A stretch of DNA of 64,000 nt, from assembly GCF_002283365.1 (NCBI RefSeq), contig NZ_MQWD01000001.1, positions 2,465,665 through 2,529,664 of the forward strand, written 5' to 3'. How positions within the stretch are numbered: position 1 is the stretch's first letter; each line of letters starts with the position of its first letter. The stretch is from Rubrivirga marina (GTDB taxonomy: Bacteria; Bacteroidota; Rhodothermia; Rhodothermales; Rubricoccaceae). The notes beneath the pieces were generated by a model. The model had not been told where the DNA came from and searched no databases. It saw only the letters and a list, made by a program, of their open reading frames with translations. Made by a program: the position numbers and the translations under genes. This document shows positions 20,491-26,437 of the stretch, one piece after another.

Positions 20491-20967
20491 ATGCTCCACC
20501 GAATCCTGGCCATCACCGCGATGGCGCTCGTCGCCCTTCCGGCCACTGCCCAGACTGCGACGCAAGACGTCACCGTCGTCGTTCCCGAAGTCGAGTCGAT
20601 CGCGGTCGGCGCCGGCGCCGTCACGCTCACGTTCACGACGCCGACCGCCGGTAGCGCCTTCTCCGACGCCACGCAGACGAGCTCGTACAACATCACCGTC
20701 AACACGGAGGACAACAAGATCACGGGTCTGCTCGACAGCGACTTCGCGACGGGCATCACGCTCTCCGTCAAGCTCGCCGCCCCGTCGGGCGCCTCGAGCG
20801 AGGACTACGTCGACCTCTCGACCACGGCCGCCGACCTCGTCACGGACGTCGCGACCGTCAACGCGACGGGCCTCAGCATTGACTACACGGCCTCGGCCAC
20901 GTCGGAGGCGCTCCCGAACGGCCCTGGCGAGACCAACACGGTGACGTTCACGATCACCGACCAGTAG
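20491..20967 (+). CDS. Small exported beta-rich protein, putative fibre subunit
   Basis: 158 aa. Signal peptide MLHRILAITAMALVALPATA-Q. The mature domain is Thr/Ser/Asp-rich with no cysteine and alternating strands (QDVTVVVPEV, AVTLTFTTP, SYNITVNTED, LSVKLAAPSG) ending TVTFTITDQ. It resembles pilin-like or spore-coat-U-like beta-sandwich subunits, but no family was recognised with confidence. It heads a four-gene cluster; the next gene (36 nt on) ends in a very similar strand, TVVYTITQQ. Its AT-leaning codon use suggests high expression or structural constraint. Confidence 0.7.
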   Translation: MLHRILAITAMALVALPATAQTATQDVTVVVPEVESIAVGAGAVTLTFTTPTAGSAFSDATQTSSYNITVNTEDNKITGLLDSDFATGITLSVKLAAPSGASSEDYVDLSTTAADLVTDVATVNATGLSIDYTASATSEALPNGPGETNTVTFTITDQ

Positions 20968-21003
20968 CCGCTCCCCGCGTCGCTCGCCGGCCTGGCCCGG
21001 TCC

Positions 21004-21450
21004 ATGCGTACGCTCGCGCTCTTGCTCCTCGTCGGCCTCGGGCTCGCCCCCGAGGCCGGCGCGCAGGCCCTGGCCGTCTCGCCCTCCGGCGTTGACATCC
21101 AGGTCCCGTTCACGGGCGTCGGGTTCGGGACCGGCGTCGACACCGGCTCGCTCCTCCGCTGGCGAGGCCTGCTGTTCAGCCAGACCAAGGTCACGGTCGA
21201 GACCGTCACCCCCGCGCAGGCCTACGGGCTGAGCGTCCAGGCGACGAGCCCGTACCTCGGCCGGTCGGCCGGGCGGGTCGTGCTCCAAGACGGCGCGCCG
21301 GCCCGAGACCTCGTCACGGACATTCCCGGGACCATCCTCTTCCTGTTCCTCGAGGGGCGGGCGACCCTCCGCTACGAGGCGACGGTCACGGGGATGCCCG
21401 CCAGTGGGAGCGACGACCACACCGTCGTCTACACCATCACGCAGCAATGA
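21004..21450 (+). CDS. Small exported beta-rich protein, putative minor subunit
   Basis: 148 aa. Signal peptide MRTLALLLLVGLGLAPEAGA-Q. The mature part is strand-rich (ALAVSPSGVDIQVPF, KVTVETVTPAQAYGLSVQA, TLRYEATVTGMP) and ends TVVYTITQQ, matching the C-terminal strand of the preceding protein. No known domain was recognised. The stop overlaps the ATG of the next gene (ATGA), so this protein and the chaperone-like protein are probably translated together. Confidence 0.7.
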   Translation: MRTLALLLLVGLGLAPEAGAQALAVSPSGVDIQVPFTGVGFGTGVDTGSLLRWRGLLFSQTKVTVETVTPAQAYGLSVQATSPYLGRSAGRVVLQDGAPARDLVTDIPGTILFLFLEGRATLRYEATVTGMPASGSDDHTVVYTITQQ

Positions 21451-22256
21451 CGCTCCGACTCGCCGTCGTCGCCGCGCTGGCGGCGCTCCTCGCCGCCCCC
21501 GCCGCCGCCCAGATCGTCGTCTACGGCGCGCTCTCGCGCGACCGCGACGTGACGCCGGGCCAGGCCTACGAGGAGGTCGTCCGACTCCACAACCCGACCG
21601 ACCAGCCGCAGCAGGCCCGGCTGTTCCTCACCGACTACCGGTTCGCGGCCGACGGCTCGAACGTGTACCCCGACCCCGGCACCTCAGAGCGCTCGAACGC
21701 GCGCTGGATCACGTTCGCCCCGCCCGTGCTCACGCTGCCGGCCGGCGAGACCGTCCCCGTCACCCTCACCGTCGCCGTCCCGGCCGACCTGCCCGCCTCG
21801 GGCTCGTACTGGTCCATGCTGATGGTCGAGCCGATCGCCCGCGGGTCCGCCGAGTCGACGCTCGAGCCGGAGGAGGGCGAGCAGGTCCGGTACGGCGTGT
21901 TCGAGCGGGTCCGCTACGGCGTCCAGATCGCCAGCCACGTCGGGGAGGCCGAGGCCGTCGCCGAGGTGGTCGACGTCGCGCTCCTCGACCGGGCCGAGGG
22001 CGGGCGGATCCTCGCCGCGGCCGTCACGAACCCGGGCGAGCGGATGATCGACGGCCCGGTCTACGTCGACGTGTTCGATGCCGACGGCGTCGCGGTCGGC
22101 CGGATCGAGGGCTCGTCGGCCCGGATCTACCCGGGCACGTCGTTCCGTCACCGCGTCGACCTCAGCGCCCTCGACCCCGGCGTCTACGAGGCGCTGTTGG
22201 TGATCGACGGCGGGGAAGCCGGCGTGTTCGGGGCGCAGTACACGCTCGAGCTCTAA
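21447..22256 (+). CDS. PapD-like two-domain periplasmic chaperone candidate
   Basis: 269 aa. Signal peptide MTLRLAVVAALAALLAAPAAA-Q. Domain 1 (~25-135) has the layout of pilus chaperones: EEVVRLHNPTDQPQQARLFL early and PPVLTLPAGETVPVTLTV then PASGSYWSMLMVEP late. Domain 2 (~145-269) is a second Ig-like fold (RILAAAVTNPGERM, YVDVFDADGVAVG, GVYEALLVIDGG) ending AQYTLEL. Similarity to PapD/DUF916-like proteins is structural in character only. Its place between small exported subunits and a large barrel protein supports a chaperone role. The start overlaps the previous stop and the next gene begins 3 nt downstream. Confidence 0.65.
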   Translation: MTLRLAVVAALAALLAAPAAAQIVVYGALSRDRDVTPGQAYEEVVRLHNPTDQPQQARLFLTDYRFAADGSNVYPDPGTSERSNARWITFAPPVLTLPAGETVPVTLTVAVPADLPASGSYWSMLMVEPIARGSAESTLEPEEGEQVRYGVFERVRYGVQIASHVGEAEAVAEVVDVALLDRAEGGRILAAAVTNPGERMIDGPVYVDVFDADGVAVGRIEGSSARIYPGTSFRHRVDLSALDPGVYEALLVIDGGEAGVFGAQYTLEL

Positions 22257-22259
22257 GGC

Positions 22260-25200
22260 GTGGCCCGCGCGCTCCTGGCAGTCCTGTTGGCGCTCGCGAC
22301 CGGGTCCCCTCGGGCGCAGGCCCCGTCGCGGCCCGCCGACCTGGTAGCCCTGGCCGCCTCGGCGAGCCCGGCCGTGACGCCCGCGACCGACGCCCCGCTC
22401 CGCGTCCGGACGCCGGGACCCGACACGCTCCTCGTCGCTCCGGGCGGGACAGTCGGTTTCGGGATCCGCATCGACGAGACCTCCGGCCGCTCGCGGGCCG
22501 TCCACCTCGACGCGACGCCCCTCGGTGGGTGGCGGACCCTCATCACGCGTCCCACGCTCGACCTCACGGCCCGGGGCTCGACGCTCCAACTCGTCAGCCT
22601 CCGCGCCCCGATGGACGCCGAGGCGGGGTTCTACCCGATCGACGTGTGGGTCCGGGCCGACGGCCACACCCCGACGCGCGTGCGGAAGGTCGTGGAGGTG
22701 TCCGTGCGGGAGGCGATCGCCGTGATGGTGACCGGCGGCCCCCGCTACGTCCCGGCCGGCGAGCCGTACTCGGCGACGGTACTCGTGTCGAACGGCGGCA
22801 ACGCGCCCGCGCTCGTCGCGCTCGCGCTCCGGTCCACCGAGCGCCACGCGGTCGACCCCGCTGAGACGGCCGTCGAGGTCCCCCCGGCCACGACCGTGGA
22901 GGTCCCCGTCGTCGTGCAGACGGCCGTGCGGCCCACCGCGACGACCGACCGGCTCCTCGTGGAGGCGCGGCTTTCGGGCCGCCCCGGGCTCGCGGCGCGT
23001 GGGCAGACCACCGTGGAAGTCATCCCGCGAACGGGGTCGGCGGCCCCGGACCACACGTGGCCGCTCGTCGGCGCGATCTCGGCCGTCGGGCGTGATGGGG
23101 CGTCGGTCCCACTCGTGGGGCTGGCGGGGCGTGTCCCGCTCGACCCGGCCGGCCGCCACCAGGCCTCGCTCGTGCTCGCGGGCATCGGCCAGCGGTCCGA
23201 GTCGGTGTACGCCGGGACGCCGGAGTGGTGGGCGGAGTACCGCGGGCCGGGCGTCGAGGCACGGGCCGGGACCGGGTCGTACATGCTTTCGCCCGCGACG
23301 GCGTCGTCGACGTACGGCGCGGGCGCGCGCGTCCAGCTCGAGCACCGGGGCGTGATCGCCGCCGCCCACGTGCGCCAACCCTTGACCCGCACCGCCCAGG
23401 TGCCGAACACGGACGTCGGTGCGACGGTAGGCGCGCGCGGCCGGCTAGGCGAGGCGACCCTCAACGCGCTCATGGGCGTCGGCGAGCTCGGCGGTCGCGT
23501 CGTGACCGCCCGGGTCCAGTCGGAGGCGCTGCCGCGGCTCGACCTGGACACCGAGGCCGGGCTCGCGCTCGACCGGATGCGCCCCGTCTACTCTCTCCGC
23601 GCCTCCGCCGACGTCGGGCGCCTCGCGCTTGGGGCTACGGCTCGCCGGCGCGACCAGAGCCAGCCCGGCCGCTTTACCTCGCACACGGCGCACACGCTCC
23701 AGGGGCGGATGGCCCTCGCTCCGCGTTCCTTCATCCGCGTGAGCTGGCGGGCTGCGTCGCAGGACGCCGGGCGGGGCGACATCCTCCGGCCGTCGTCGGA
23801 GGATCTCCTCGACGCGATGGTGGAGGGCACGACGGACCTCGGCGGTGTGACGCTGACCGGCGGCCTCGGCGCTGCCCGTGAGCACCGCGTCCGCCTCGGC
23901 CTGTTCGACCGGACGCAGACCGCCGCGCGCGGCCAGTTGGGCCTGGCGTGGCGGGGCGCGCGCCTCCGCCTCGACGGCGACCTCGGACGAGTCACGTTCG
24001 CCGACGCGGACGGGGCGACCCCGGGGTGGACGGCCCGACTGTCCACCGGCTACAACGGGTCCTGGGGCCACGTCAGCGGGCACGTCGAGGGCGCGGAAGG
24101 CGGCTCGATGTGGGACACGTACGCGTCGCGCCGGTGGCTCGGCGGCGTGTCGGGCGCCGTCCGCCTCGGCGAGTGGCTGCGGCTGCAGGCCGGGCTCGAC
24201 GTCGGGGAGTACCGCGTCGACACGCCCGAGCAGGCGCTCCGCGACGCGACGGCCTCCGGCCGGCTCGACGCGACGGTCCAACTCCCGGCCGACCGCGAGC
24301 TGTCGCTCGGCGCCAGCGTCTACCGCGCCGGCGACTACCGGGCCGACCACGCGCACCTGACGCTCCGCGTCCCGGTCCGCGTGCCGCTTCCGTATCGGGC
24401 CGAGGTCGCCCGGGTCCGCGGTCGGTTCGTCGACGCGGGGACAGGGCGCGGCGTGTCCGGGCTCGTCGTGTTCTTCGGCTCGGACCGCGTCGTGACGGAC
24501 CGCGACGGCGCGTTCAGCTTCGACGCGACGCCGGCCGGCGGCTACCTCTTTGTCGACCGGTCGACGCTCGGGGCCGATCAGGTGCCCCTGACGGCGCTCC
24601 CTTTGCAACTCCGGCCCGGCGAGCCGGTCGAGATCGAGATCGGCCGTCGCGTCTCGATCCGCGGCGCGCTCCGGCGGGTCCGGGTCCTCGGCACCGGCGC
24701 GCGCACCGACACGACGGACGCCGCCGGGGTGCCCCACGTCGTCGTCGAGGCGGAGGGGACCGGCCAGCGGCATCGCGTCGTCACCGACGCCGAGGGGCGC
24801 TTCGACTTCCTCGACCTCCCAGCCGGGGTGTACACGCTCCGCGTCGTCCACGGCCGAATGCCGGAGGGGCACCGTCTGGAGCGCGAGACGTGGCCGCTTC
24901 ACGTCACGGAGCCGGTCGATCTGTTGTGGCGCGTCGTCCCCGAGCGCCGCGAAATCCGCATCCTGCGCGGCGGAACGATCCGGGCGGAGGCCGCCCCCGC
25001 GTCCCGGCCGCTCTTGACCGTCCGGCCTCAACCCGCCGACCCGGTCGCAGCCGCCTCGGCGCCGTCGTCGAGCGAGCCGGGCGCGCGCTCTGACGCCGGG
25101 GCCAGCCCGGTGGCCGCTCGCCTCTCTGTGCGGGAGCAACCGGAAGGCCCCACGCCCCAGCCGATCGCGCCCCCGCCGGCGCACTCTGTCGACGCCGACT

Positions 25201-25670
25201 CCGCGCAGGGCGCCCGTCCCCAGGTCCTTACCGAGCGGGCGAGCGTCGTGACGGCGGAGGCCGGGCTCCCCGTCCCCGCCGAGGGCGCGACCCGGCGGTC
25301 CCGTGACGGAGCCTTCCGTACGGTCGGTGCGAGCGCACCGCCGAGCGCGCGTCGCCGAAAGGCGGCCGGCCTCCCTGGGCGTTCGTCGTCGGTCTCGAAG
25401 GGCTCGCCGGTCCGCGTCCTCGCGCCGGCGATCGTCGGGCGCGGGCTCCATTGTCTCGCTGGCGGGCCGGAGTGGCCAGGGGCGCCTGCGAGCGCGCGCG
25501 ACGCTCGTCTCGCGAAGGCCCGGTCGCCGGTGCCGGCTGCGGATGGGACGGACTGCGCCCGGATGTCCCGCTCGCCGTTTCGGATGCCGGCGCCGGTTCA
25601 GCAGCCCGTCGTCTCGTGTCGCGCGACGCGGCGGAGGACCACCCCGGGGGAGGCCTCGCTCGAGACGTAG
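22260..25670 (+). CDS. Large Ig-like / outer-membrane barrel / CnaB-like protein, usher-like candidate
   Basis: 1136 aa, GTG start 3 nt after the chaperone-like gene; signal peptide MARALLAVLLALATGSPRA-Q. Residues ~60-260 are two Ig-like domains of NPCBM/NEW3 type (LLVAPGGTVGFGIRI; EPYSATVLVSNGGNAPALVA). Residues ~270-710 show dense amphipathic strands with aromatic ends, as in a large outer-membrane barrel (VGARGRLGEATLNALMGVG, GQLGLAWRGARLRLDGDLG). Residues ~715-790 and ~795-890 are two carboxypeptidase-regulatory/CnaB-like domains (GRGVSGLVVFFGSDRVVTD; GRFDFLDLPAGVYTLRV). The tail ~900-1136 is Pro/Ala/Arg-rich and may be disordered or out of its original frame. It could be a non-canonical usher or fibre anchor; canonical usher motifs were not identified. 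Confidence 0.65.
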   Translation: MARALLAVLLALATGSPRAQAPSRPADLVALAASASPAVTPATDAPLRVRTPGPDTLLVAPGGTVGFGIRIDETSGRSRAVHLDATPLGGWRTLITRPTLDLTARGSTLQLVSLRAPMDAEAGFYPIDVWVRADGHTPTRVRKVVEVSVREAIAVMVTGGPRYVPAGEPYSATVLVSNGGNAPALVALALRSTERHAVDPAETAVEVPPATTVEVPVVVQTAVRPTATTDRLLVEARLSGRPGLAARGQTTVEVIPRTGSAAPDHTWPLVGAISAVGRDGASVPLVGLAGRVPLDPAGRHQASLVLAGIGQRSESVYAGTPEWWAEYRGPGVEARAGTGSYMLSPATASSTYGAGARVQLEHRGVIAAAHVRQPLTRTAQVPNTDVGATVGARGRLGEATLNALMGVGELGGRVVTARVQSEALPRLDLDTEAGLALDRMRPVYSLRASADVGRLALGATARRRDQSQPGRFTSHTAHTLQGRMALAPRSFIRVSWRAASQDAGRGDILRPSSEDLLDAMVEGTTDLGGVTLTGGLGAAREHRVRLGLFDRTQTAARGQLGLAWRGARLRLDGDLGRVTFADADGATPGWTARLSTGYNGSWGHVSGHVEGAEGGSMWDTYASRRWLGGVSGAVRLGEWLRLQAGLDVGEYRVDTPEQALRDATASGRLDATVQLPADRELSLGASVYRAGDYRADHAHLTLRVPVRVPLPYRAEVARVRGRFVDAGTGRGVSGLVVFFGSDRVVTDRDGAFSFDATPAGGYLFVDRSTLGADQVPLTALPLQLRPGEPVEIEIGRRVSIRGALRRVRVLGTGARTDTTDAAGVPHVVVEAEGTGQRHRVVTDAEGRFDFLDLPAGVYTLRVVHGRMPEGHRLERETWPLHVTEPVDLLWRVVPERREIRILRGGTIRAEAAPASRPLLTVRPQPADPVAAASAPSSSEPGARSDAGASPVAARLSVREQPEGPTPQPIAPPPAHSVDADSAQGARPQVLTERASVVTAEAGLPVPAEGATRRSRDGAFRTVGASAPPSARRRKAAGLPGRSSSVSKGSPVRVLAPAIVGRGLHCLAGGPEWPGAPASARDARLAKARSPVPAADGTDCARMSRSPFRMPAPVQQPVVSCRATRRRTTPGEASLET

Positions 25671-26437
25671 AGCGTGGTCACGGTGACGTTGTAGTGCCAC
25701 GACTCGTCGAGGACGAGGTCGAGGCGCCCGTCGCTGTCGAGGTCGCCGGCCCAGAGGAGGCGGGGGTGGCCGCCGTCCCGATTCGGCACGCGGGTGACCG
25801 GCTGGGTGCTTCCGTTGGGGGTCGTGAGCGAGATCTGCCACTGGCGAATGAAGCCACCCTCACTCGAGTCGGCGACGACGGTGAGCGTGTAGGTCGCGCC
25901 GTCGAGTGAGAGCGGATAGGCGCCCGACTCCCGGAGGTACGTCGTCTCGCTGTCCGCGACCACCGAGACCGGACCGTTCGGAAGCGGCCCGGCCTCACGA
26001 CGGACGAACAGGGTCGAGGGGTCCTCGACTCCCCCGAACTCGTCGACGACCGATGCCGGCGTCGTTACGCGGCGGCCCGTGAAGGGTCCGGTGTCGGGGT
26101 CGATGACCTCGTCTCGGGCGGCCTCGACGCGGAGTTGGACGGACCGGAGCTCGGCGCCCGGCCCCGTCGTGTCGACGGCCTGCCACGTCTCGCCGTCGCG
26201 GGCGGGGGCCTCGGCGCCGTGGTAGACACCGAGGACCGTGAACACCTCGTAGCCTCCGAGGACCGTGGTGTCGAACCCCGTGTCGAACGCGGTCCGCGTG
26301 TCTGGCCGGAGCGGATCGGAGGTCGGGGGCGGTGCGGGAGGGACGGCGTACGGGTCCGGATCGGTCGCCGTGTCGGGGGCGAGGCGGCAACCGGCTAGGA
26401 CCACCAGCGCACCGAGGCCGAGGAGGAGACGGAGCAT
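25598..26437 (-). CDS. Lipoprotein with calcium-loop-like motif
   Basis: 279 aa. Signal [17 protein letters not shown] (lipobox LAGC), then a Pro-rich linker. The domain contains [15 protein letters not shown] and, near residue 225, [19 protein letters not shown], a DxDxDG-type loop like those of VCBS/FG-GAP or dockerin repeats, so calcium binding is plausible. It ends in ...ARHETTGC. The function is unknown. Its 3' end overlaps the 3' end of the usher-like gene on the other strand by 73 bp. It is divergent from the topoisomerase gene. Confidence 0.8.

Follow-up and report, generated by a model that had tools for sequence, protein, structure and literature searches.

A four-gene operon found across phyla

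The 64,000-nucleotide stretch of the Rubrivirga marina genome analyzed here (the window; contig NZ_MQWD01000001.1, positions 2,465,665 to 2,529,664) contains four consecutive plus-strand open reading frames (ORFs), which we call gene A (positions 20491 to 20967 of the window), gene B (21004 to 21450), gene C (21447 to 22256), and gene D (22260 to 25670). They encode proteins of 158, 148, 269, and 1,136 amino acids, respectively. The window has a G+C content of about 72%. A and B are separated by 36 nt, B and C overlap in an ATGA, and 3 nt lie between C and D, and the genes thus form a tight operon, as a first-pass annotation of this DNA had described. All four proteins begin with a signal-peptide-like stretch, judged by eye; a scan for sigma-70 promoters and terminators found none. 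Among the window proteins, A and B had no match in Pfam, C had a sub-threshold match to fn3_5 only, and D matched CarboxypepD_reg (2.9e-14), while NCBIfam gave no match above its cut-offs. Many bacterial phyla include carriers of this gene set, which goes unnamed there, and we consider it probable that the set specifies a chaperone-usher-type fiber assembly system that current family models fail to recognize. A would be a small, beta-rich, polymerizing pilin, B a small tip or first subunit, C a periplasmic chaperone, and D an usher-like assembly platform in the outer membrane.

The first-pass annotation had pointed to the nearly identical last strands of A (TVTFTITDQ, 20938 to 20964) and B (TVVYTITQQ, 21421 to 21447). 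These strands are conserved as TVTYTIT across the A family and TVTFTLTxQ across the B family, and profile-profile comparison showed that the two families are homologous (probability 99.1%, E value 9e-19). A point beyond that annotation is an N-terminal extension restricted to A: the residues preceding the common core number a median of 15 in 118 A-type proteins and 1 in 51 B-type proteins. In the window, the mature extension of A is QTATQDVTVVVPEVE (20551 to 20595), a putative donor strand by its length and hydrophobic pattern; in the family it follows the pattern Q/H-T-V-T-V-x-V-x-x-I-N-x-I, with alternating columns that are 99 to 100% hydrophobic. Chaperone-usher pilins bear an N-terminal donor extension, and tip adhesins lack one. 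Given this difference, an extension on A only suggests that A is the polymerizing subunit and that B most likely occupies the tip or first position. Judged from sequence, the pair would then display the chaperone-usher trait of a donor extension on the polymerizing subunit that is absent from the terminal one. The window's genome has another A-type gene with an N-terminal extension, unlinked to the operon and 0.94 Mb distant (L220; G000:C1:1550211-1550663), with no C or D adjoining it within the 3.4 kb retrieved.

Searches for known subunit domains were negative. No WxL domain was matched in A (16 members) or B (window protein only), and DUF4402 (PF14352), which the first-pass annotation had suggested checking, matched neither window protein nor the 16 A members. 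Mfa/FimA domains were not found at a usable score, and PDB sequence searches with the A and B profiles returned nothing usable.

Among 60 relatives, C was present in 18 and D in 17, mostly at the same location, and the order A-B-C-D was repeated in the loci extracted from them. A single peptide pattern taken from C, run against GTDB with one genome for each species, yielded 194 relatives, of which 80 loci were kept; genes in these loci were recognized by profile searches of all frames. According to their record titles, the 80 loci span Ignavibacteria, Bacteroidota, Rhodothermales, Deltaproteobacteria, Planctomycetota, Verrucomicrobia, Armatimonadetes, Spirochaetales, Acidobacteriota, Zixibacteria, Krumholzibacteriota, KSB1, Riflebacteria, and Gemmatimonadetes, and further include Aminicenantes, Acetomicrobium, Orenia, Thiohalocapsa, and others. 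In 79 of the 80 loci, which had been selected by C alone, D is the gene immediately after C. The sole exception is a Spirochaetales locus (L172) with the order A-D-A-(small ORF)-C, in which D is upstream of C. Most loci have A-type genes upstream of C, in up to seven copies, and usually one B-type gene. Where no B was recognized, the gap between A and C is usually the size of one gene, and 27 of 32 such gaps contain a divergent, B-like exported ORF of 150 to 180 amino acids, mostly ending in a strand like ...TTVxYTVVD.

The distances between C proteins and those between D proteins were correlated across 64 loci (Mantel r of 0.73, with none of 999 permutations as high), which fits parts that are inherited together. 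Because the order is kept across phyla and the C and D distances correlate, the arrangement goes beyond chance. The conserved linkage anticipated in the first-pass annotation therefore held, but its spread had been understated, reaching many phyla beyond Rhodothermota. Chaperone-usher pili have been listed for Proteobacteria, Cyanobacteria, and Deinococcus-Thermus (PMC4654587); that list omits Ignavibacteria, Armatimonadetes, Planctomycetota, Verrucomicrobia, and Zixibacteria, which carry the set. A mobilizable plasmid of Deinococcus deserti, plasmid 2 of strain VCD115, also carries it (L197; NC_012529.1, 87735 to 92122), with its genes annotated as hypothetical, FimB/Mfa2, and carboxypeptidase regulatory-like. 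The label “FimB/Mfa2 family fimbrial subunit” that PGAP placed on C of this plasmid was unsupported by profiles. The literature searched, which did not extend to preprints and most subscription journals, contained no earlier description of the system.

Predicted folds of C and D

C has a two-Ig sequence, in keeping with its earlier description as PapD-like. A C homologue about 40% identical to it (L161) was modeled as one chain with its own B, reading through the single stop between the two genes, from ten natural read-through rows plus unpaired rows; the fusion is a modeling device and carries no claim about translation. The model had a pLDDT of 92, and its C part formed two beta-sandwiches. 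Foldseek placed the WxLIP of Enterococcus faecium first, both alone and bound to WxL (9i1y and 9i25, 3e-12), followed by the usher-pathway chaperones CsuC (4e-9) and CfaA (5e-9) and then FaeE, SafB, and Caf1M, down to 3e-7. The homologue model thus predicts for C a fold shared by tandem-Ig chaperones and WxLIP; the link to WxLIP is a further point that the first-pass annotation had not made. Pfam matches pointed the same way, all of them below cut-off: WxLIP_PGBD (DUF916) was weakly matched in 21 of 67 C homologues (best, 5e-4) and WxLIP_HBD in 4 of 67. In the alignment and in the secondary structure of the model, C ends with its second domain and has no C-terminal transmembrane helix. A PDB sequence search with the C profile gave nothing usable.

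Invariant across the 67 homologues are, in window numbering, R82, S83, N84, W87, W122, S123, M126, E128, R156, Q160, P229, and S232; R226 and Y247 are present in 64. The archaic chaperone CsuC binds the C-terminal carboxylate of its subunit through one arginine in domain 1 and a tyrosine and an arginine in domain 2 (PMC4654587). A similar carboxylate anchor may, by analogy, consist of R226 and Y247 plus either R156 or R82. Ahead of the invariant R156, the putative F1-G1 region (amino acids 147 to 165, VRYGVFERVRYGVQIASHV, 21885 to 21941) shows a conserved alternation of hydrophobic and polar residues in these homologues and may serve as the donor strand of C.

For D, the window's own protein was modeled (residues 22 to 884; 73-row alignment), with a mean pLDDT of 90.3 and a pTM of 0.68. 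The predicted architecture is a large outer-membrane barrel flanked by beta domains at both ends, much as first described: two N-terminal Ig-like domains (22398 to 22700 and 22716 to 23024, together 22398 to 23024), 26 successive barrel strands (residues 245 to 688; 23055 to 24386), and two CarboxypepD_reg-like C-terminal sandwiches (24405 to 24668 and 24672 to 24905, together 24405 to 24905). NEW3-type Pfam matches to the Ig region were found in 15 of 19 D relatives, and Porin_4 matched 5 of 42 D homologues. Foldseek against the PDB ranked FimD chains first (1.9e-11), with PapC at 1.7e-8 and AlgE, OprD-type porins, and LptD lower, at about 2e-6. The CooC_C domain of CS1 (alternative) ushers was matched by 6 of 42 homologues (best, 1.3e-5), and EcpC of Escherichia coli, itself an alternative usher, has a CarboxypepD_reg-like C terminus. 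A PDB sequence search with the D profile returned NOMO/CnaB-type domains and, weakly, porins, and nothing else. In relatives, D continues into a LysM or SPOR tail or, in a few Rhodothermales, into an MscS-like one; the wall-binding LysM and SPOR tails indicate that the C terminus of D faces the periplasm, as in ushers.

The first-pass annotation had seen no canonical fimbrial usher motifs, and direct searches agreed. The usher family PF00577 was unmatched in the window D and in 19 relatives; among nine D homologues scanned singly, one reached 0.011, below cut-off. PF00577 was likewise absent from all 113 genomes of the order, the window's genome included, and from nine genomes of carriers traced from the loci. 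The chaperone families PF00345 and PF02753 gave no match in C of the window, in 21 relatives, or in set A7, and PF00345 was found in none of 112 genomes of the order, again including the window's genome. An E. coli control was positive for both PF00577 and PF00345. D contains no TcfC-like domain. The data do not place the operon in the canonical chaperone-usher family, as neither of its defining Pfam domains is matched and the modeled barrel lacks a plug. To judge from the models, the machine looks like a relative of chaperone-usher pili in shape, not in recognizable sequence.

Proposed assembly of surface fibers

We propose that A and B are exported as beta-sandwich subunits and that C, as a periplasmic tandem-Ig chaperone, would hold them by a strand lent from its F1-G1 region. 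Subunits would polymerize and leave the cell through the barrel of D, with the N-terminal strand of A used in exchange between subunits and B, which lacks it, placed at the tip or in the first position. In relatives, LysM or SPOR tails would tether D to peptidoglycan. Such a machine would work like a chaperone-usher system, which it resembles in folds, gene order, and subunit design. The proposal draws on the position of D after C in loci selected by C, with A and B upstream as in fimA-fimI-fimC-fimD; on the barrel model of D with FimD as its top match and the matches of the C homologue to usher-pathway chaperones; and on the extension found on A and not on B, the CooC_C matches and the C terminus of EcpC, the conserved arginines and tyrosine of C, and the probable periplasmic C terminus of D. 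The first-pass annotation had named the lack of a barrel, of an Ig chaperone fold, or of conserved linkage as findings that would tell against it; a barrel and an Ig chaperone fold are predicted, and the linkage is conserved.

Chaperone-usher pili are counted as the major class of Gram-negative fibrous adhesins. With type 1 pili (FimA-FimI-FimC-FimD), the operon shares the order subunit-subunit-chaperone-usher, the tandem-Ig chaperone fold, a platform with an N-terminal beta domain, a large barrel, and two C-terminal sandwiches, and subunits with an N-terminal extension and a C-terminal strand motif. It differs in having no match to PF00577, PF00345, or pilins, in the predicted 26 strands of D rather than 24, with no plug and two N-terminal Ig domains, in the LysM/SPOR tails of D relatives, and in the phyla that carry it. 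The type V pili of Bacteroidia (FimA/Mfa1 and FimB/Mfa2) likewise occur in Bacteroidota and follow a donor-strand logic, and their name is attached to the Deinococcus C protein; the window set, however, shows no Mfa/FimA domains at a usable score. Type V pili are not known to use a chaperone or an usher.

Several observations weigh against a fiber assembly system. Alignments by hhalign to the ushers, chaperones, and pilins of E. coli K-12 and to EcpB and EcpC were not significant (probability 1 to 26%), including that of C to a PapD-type chaperone profile (probability 16%). The closest structural match of C is WxLIP, not a known fiber chaperone, and in the fused B-C model the first half of its proposed donor region does not form a strand, so strand donation by C was not seen. 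Residues 245 to 688 of D include just short loops and no plug domain; its TM-scores to FimD reach just about 0.29; and its Foldseek list is mixed with Ig-rich ciliary proteins of nearly equal score, so part of the FimD match may reflect Ig domains. The match to FimD is thus one of similar domain order and not of close superposition. Finally, four C homologues (L064, L067, L208, and L209) have no recognizable D nearby.

Within the fiber assembly proposal, the operon may represent a separate, deep chaperone-usher class spread over many diderm phyla, a reading that we hold somewhat less likely than not. Its usher would be a plugless barrel of 26 strands, fixed to peptidoglycan in some members of the family, and its chaperone would link the Gram-positive WxLIP family to the PapD type. 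The operon could instead be a remote branch of an existing class, alternative (CS1-ECP) or archaic, that has diverged past sequence detection. This is suggested by the CooC_C matches in D homologues, the CarboxypepD_reg-like end of EcpC, and the ranking of CsuC and CfaA as the best usher-pathway matches of C. Arginine and tyrosine residues in both chaperone domains are a further feature shared with the archaic and alternative systems (Csu, CFA/I-CS1, and ECP). We regard such a branch as unlikely, as alignments of the D profile to EcpC and of the C profile to EcpB are not significant, D has a plugless barrel of 26 strands and two N-terminal Ig domains, and C is closer to WxLIP than to CsuC. The lack of a TcfC-like domain in D is another difference from those systems.

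The main rival to fiber assembly is a diderm counterpart of the WxL clusters of Firmicutes (WxLIP, DUF916-DUF3324), in which C would pin the small WxL-like proteins A and B on the wall or surface, D would anchor the outer membrane to peptidoglycan, and no fiber would be polymerized. WxLIP, alone and WxL bound, heads the structural matches of C; the weak DUF916 and WxLIP_HBD matches, the small beta-sandwich partners encoded nearby, and the peptidoglycan-binding tails of D relatives also fit, and a WxLIP strand has been predicted to insert into WxL (PMC10599100). However, A-type proteins conserve a strand-like extension and reach seven copies, A and B show neither a WxL domain match nor a WxL motif, C lacks a C-terminal membrane helix, and C is nearly always paired with an outer-membrane barrel whose best fold matches are ushers. 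A wall-anchored complex of this kind is improbable in our estimation. Least credible, and in our view quite improbable, is a role for D as a large outer-membrane channel that carries another cargo, such as polysaccharide, lipid, or nutrients, with A, B, and C acting as its accessory proteins in the periplasm or at the surface: D has 26 strands, as in LptD, Porin_4 matches, and LptD, AlgE, and OprD-type porins in its Foldseek list, but ushers lead that list by several orders of magnitude, and pilin-like and chaperone-like genes accompany D across phyla.

If fiber assembly is correct, a four-part operon now labeled hypothetical or mislabeled FimB/Mfa2 would explain how the lineages outside the published list build surface adhesins. 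It would also supply an evolutionary link between Firmicutes WxLIP and usher chaperones and a natural plugless usher for testing pore gating. Were a separate deep class to hold, strand-donating surface assembly would be older than the split of the known usher classes.

Tails and variants

The D protein of the window ends in an unconserved tail rich in proline, alanine, and arginine (residues ~885 to 1136; 24912 to 25670), which matched no domain, whether LysM, SPOR, MscS-like, or other, and in which no frameshifted LysM/SPOR remnant was recognized. Its gene overlaps by 73 bp a convergent, minus-strand ORF at its 3′ end (25598 to 26437) that encodes a lipoprotein-like protein, and the tail may be decaying. 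In six other D proteins (L138, L150, L158, L159, L178, and L185), the C-terminal ~300 to 450 amino acids form, in place of LysM or SPOR, a set of hydrophobic helices plus a beta-domain of MscS-like type; PF00924 scored 22.2 bits, above cut-off, in L159 and was weaker or absent in the other five. The Rhodothermales D proteins with such tails are apparently outer-membrane barrels fused to an inner-membrane domain.

A Bacteroidota variant of the locus has the order A-A-A-C-D (L213, 9391 to 13657; L217, 9349 to 13600), followed by an exported protein of 484 to 485 amino acids that ends in YYSFTAI. With its subunit-like end strand, this protein is possibly a two-domain adhesin.

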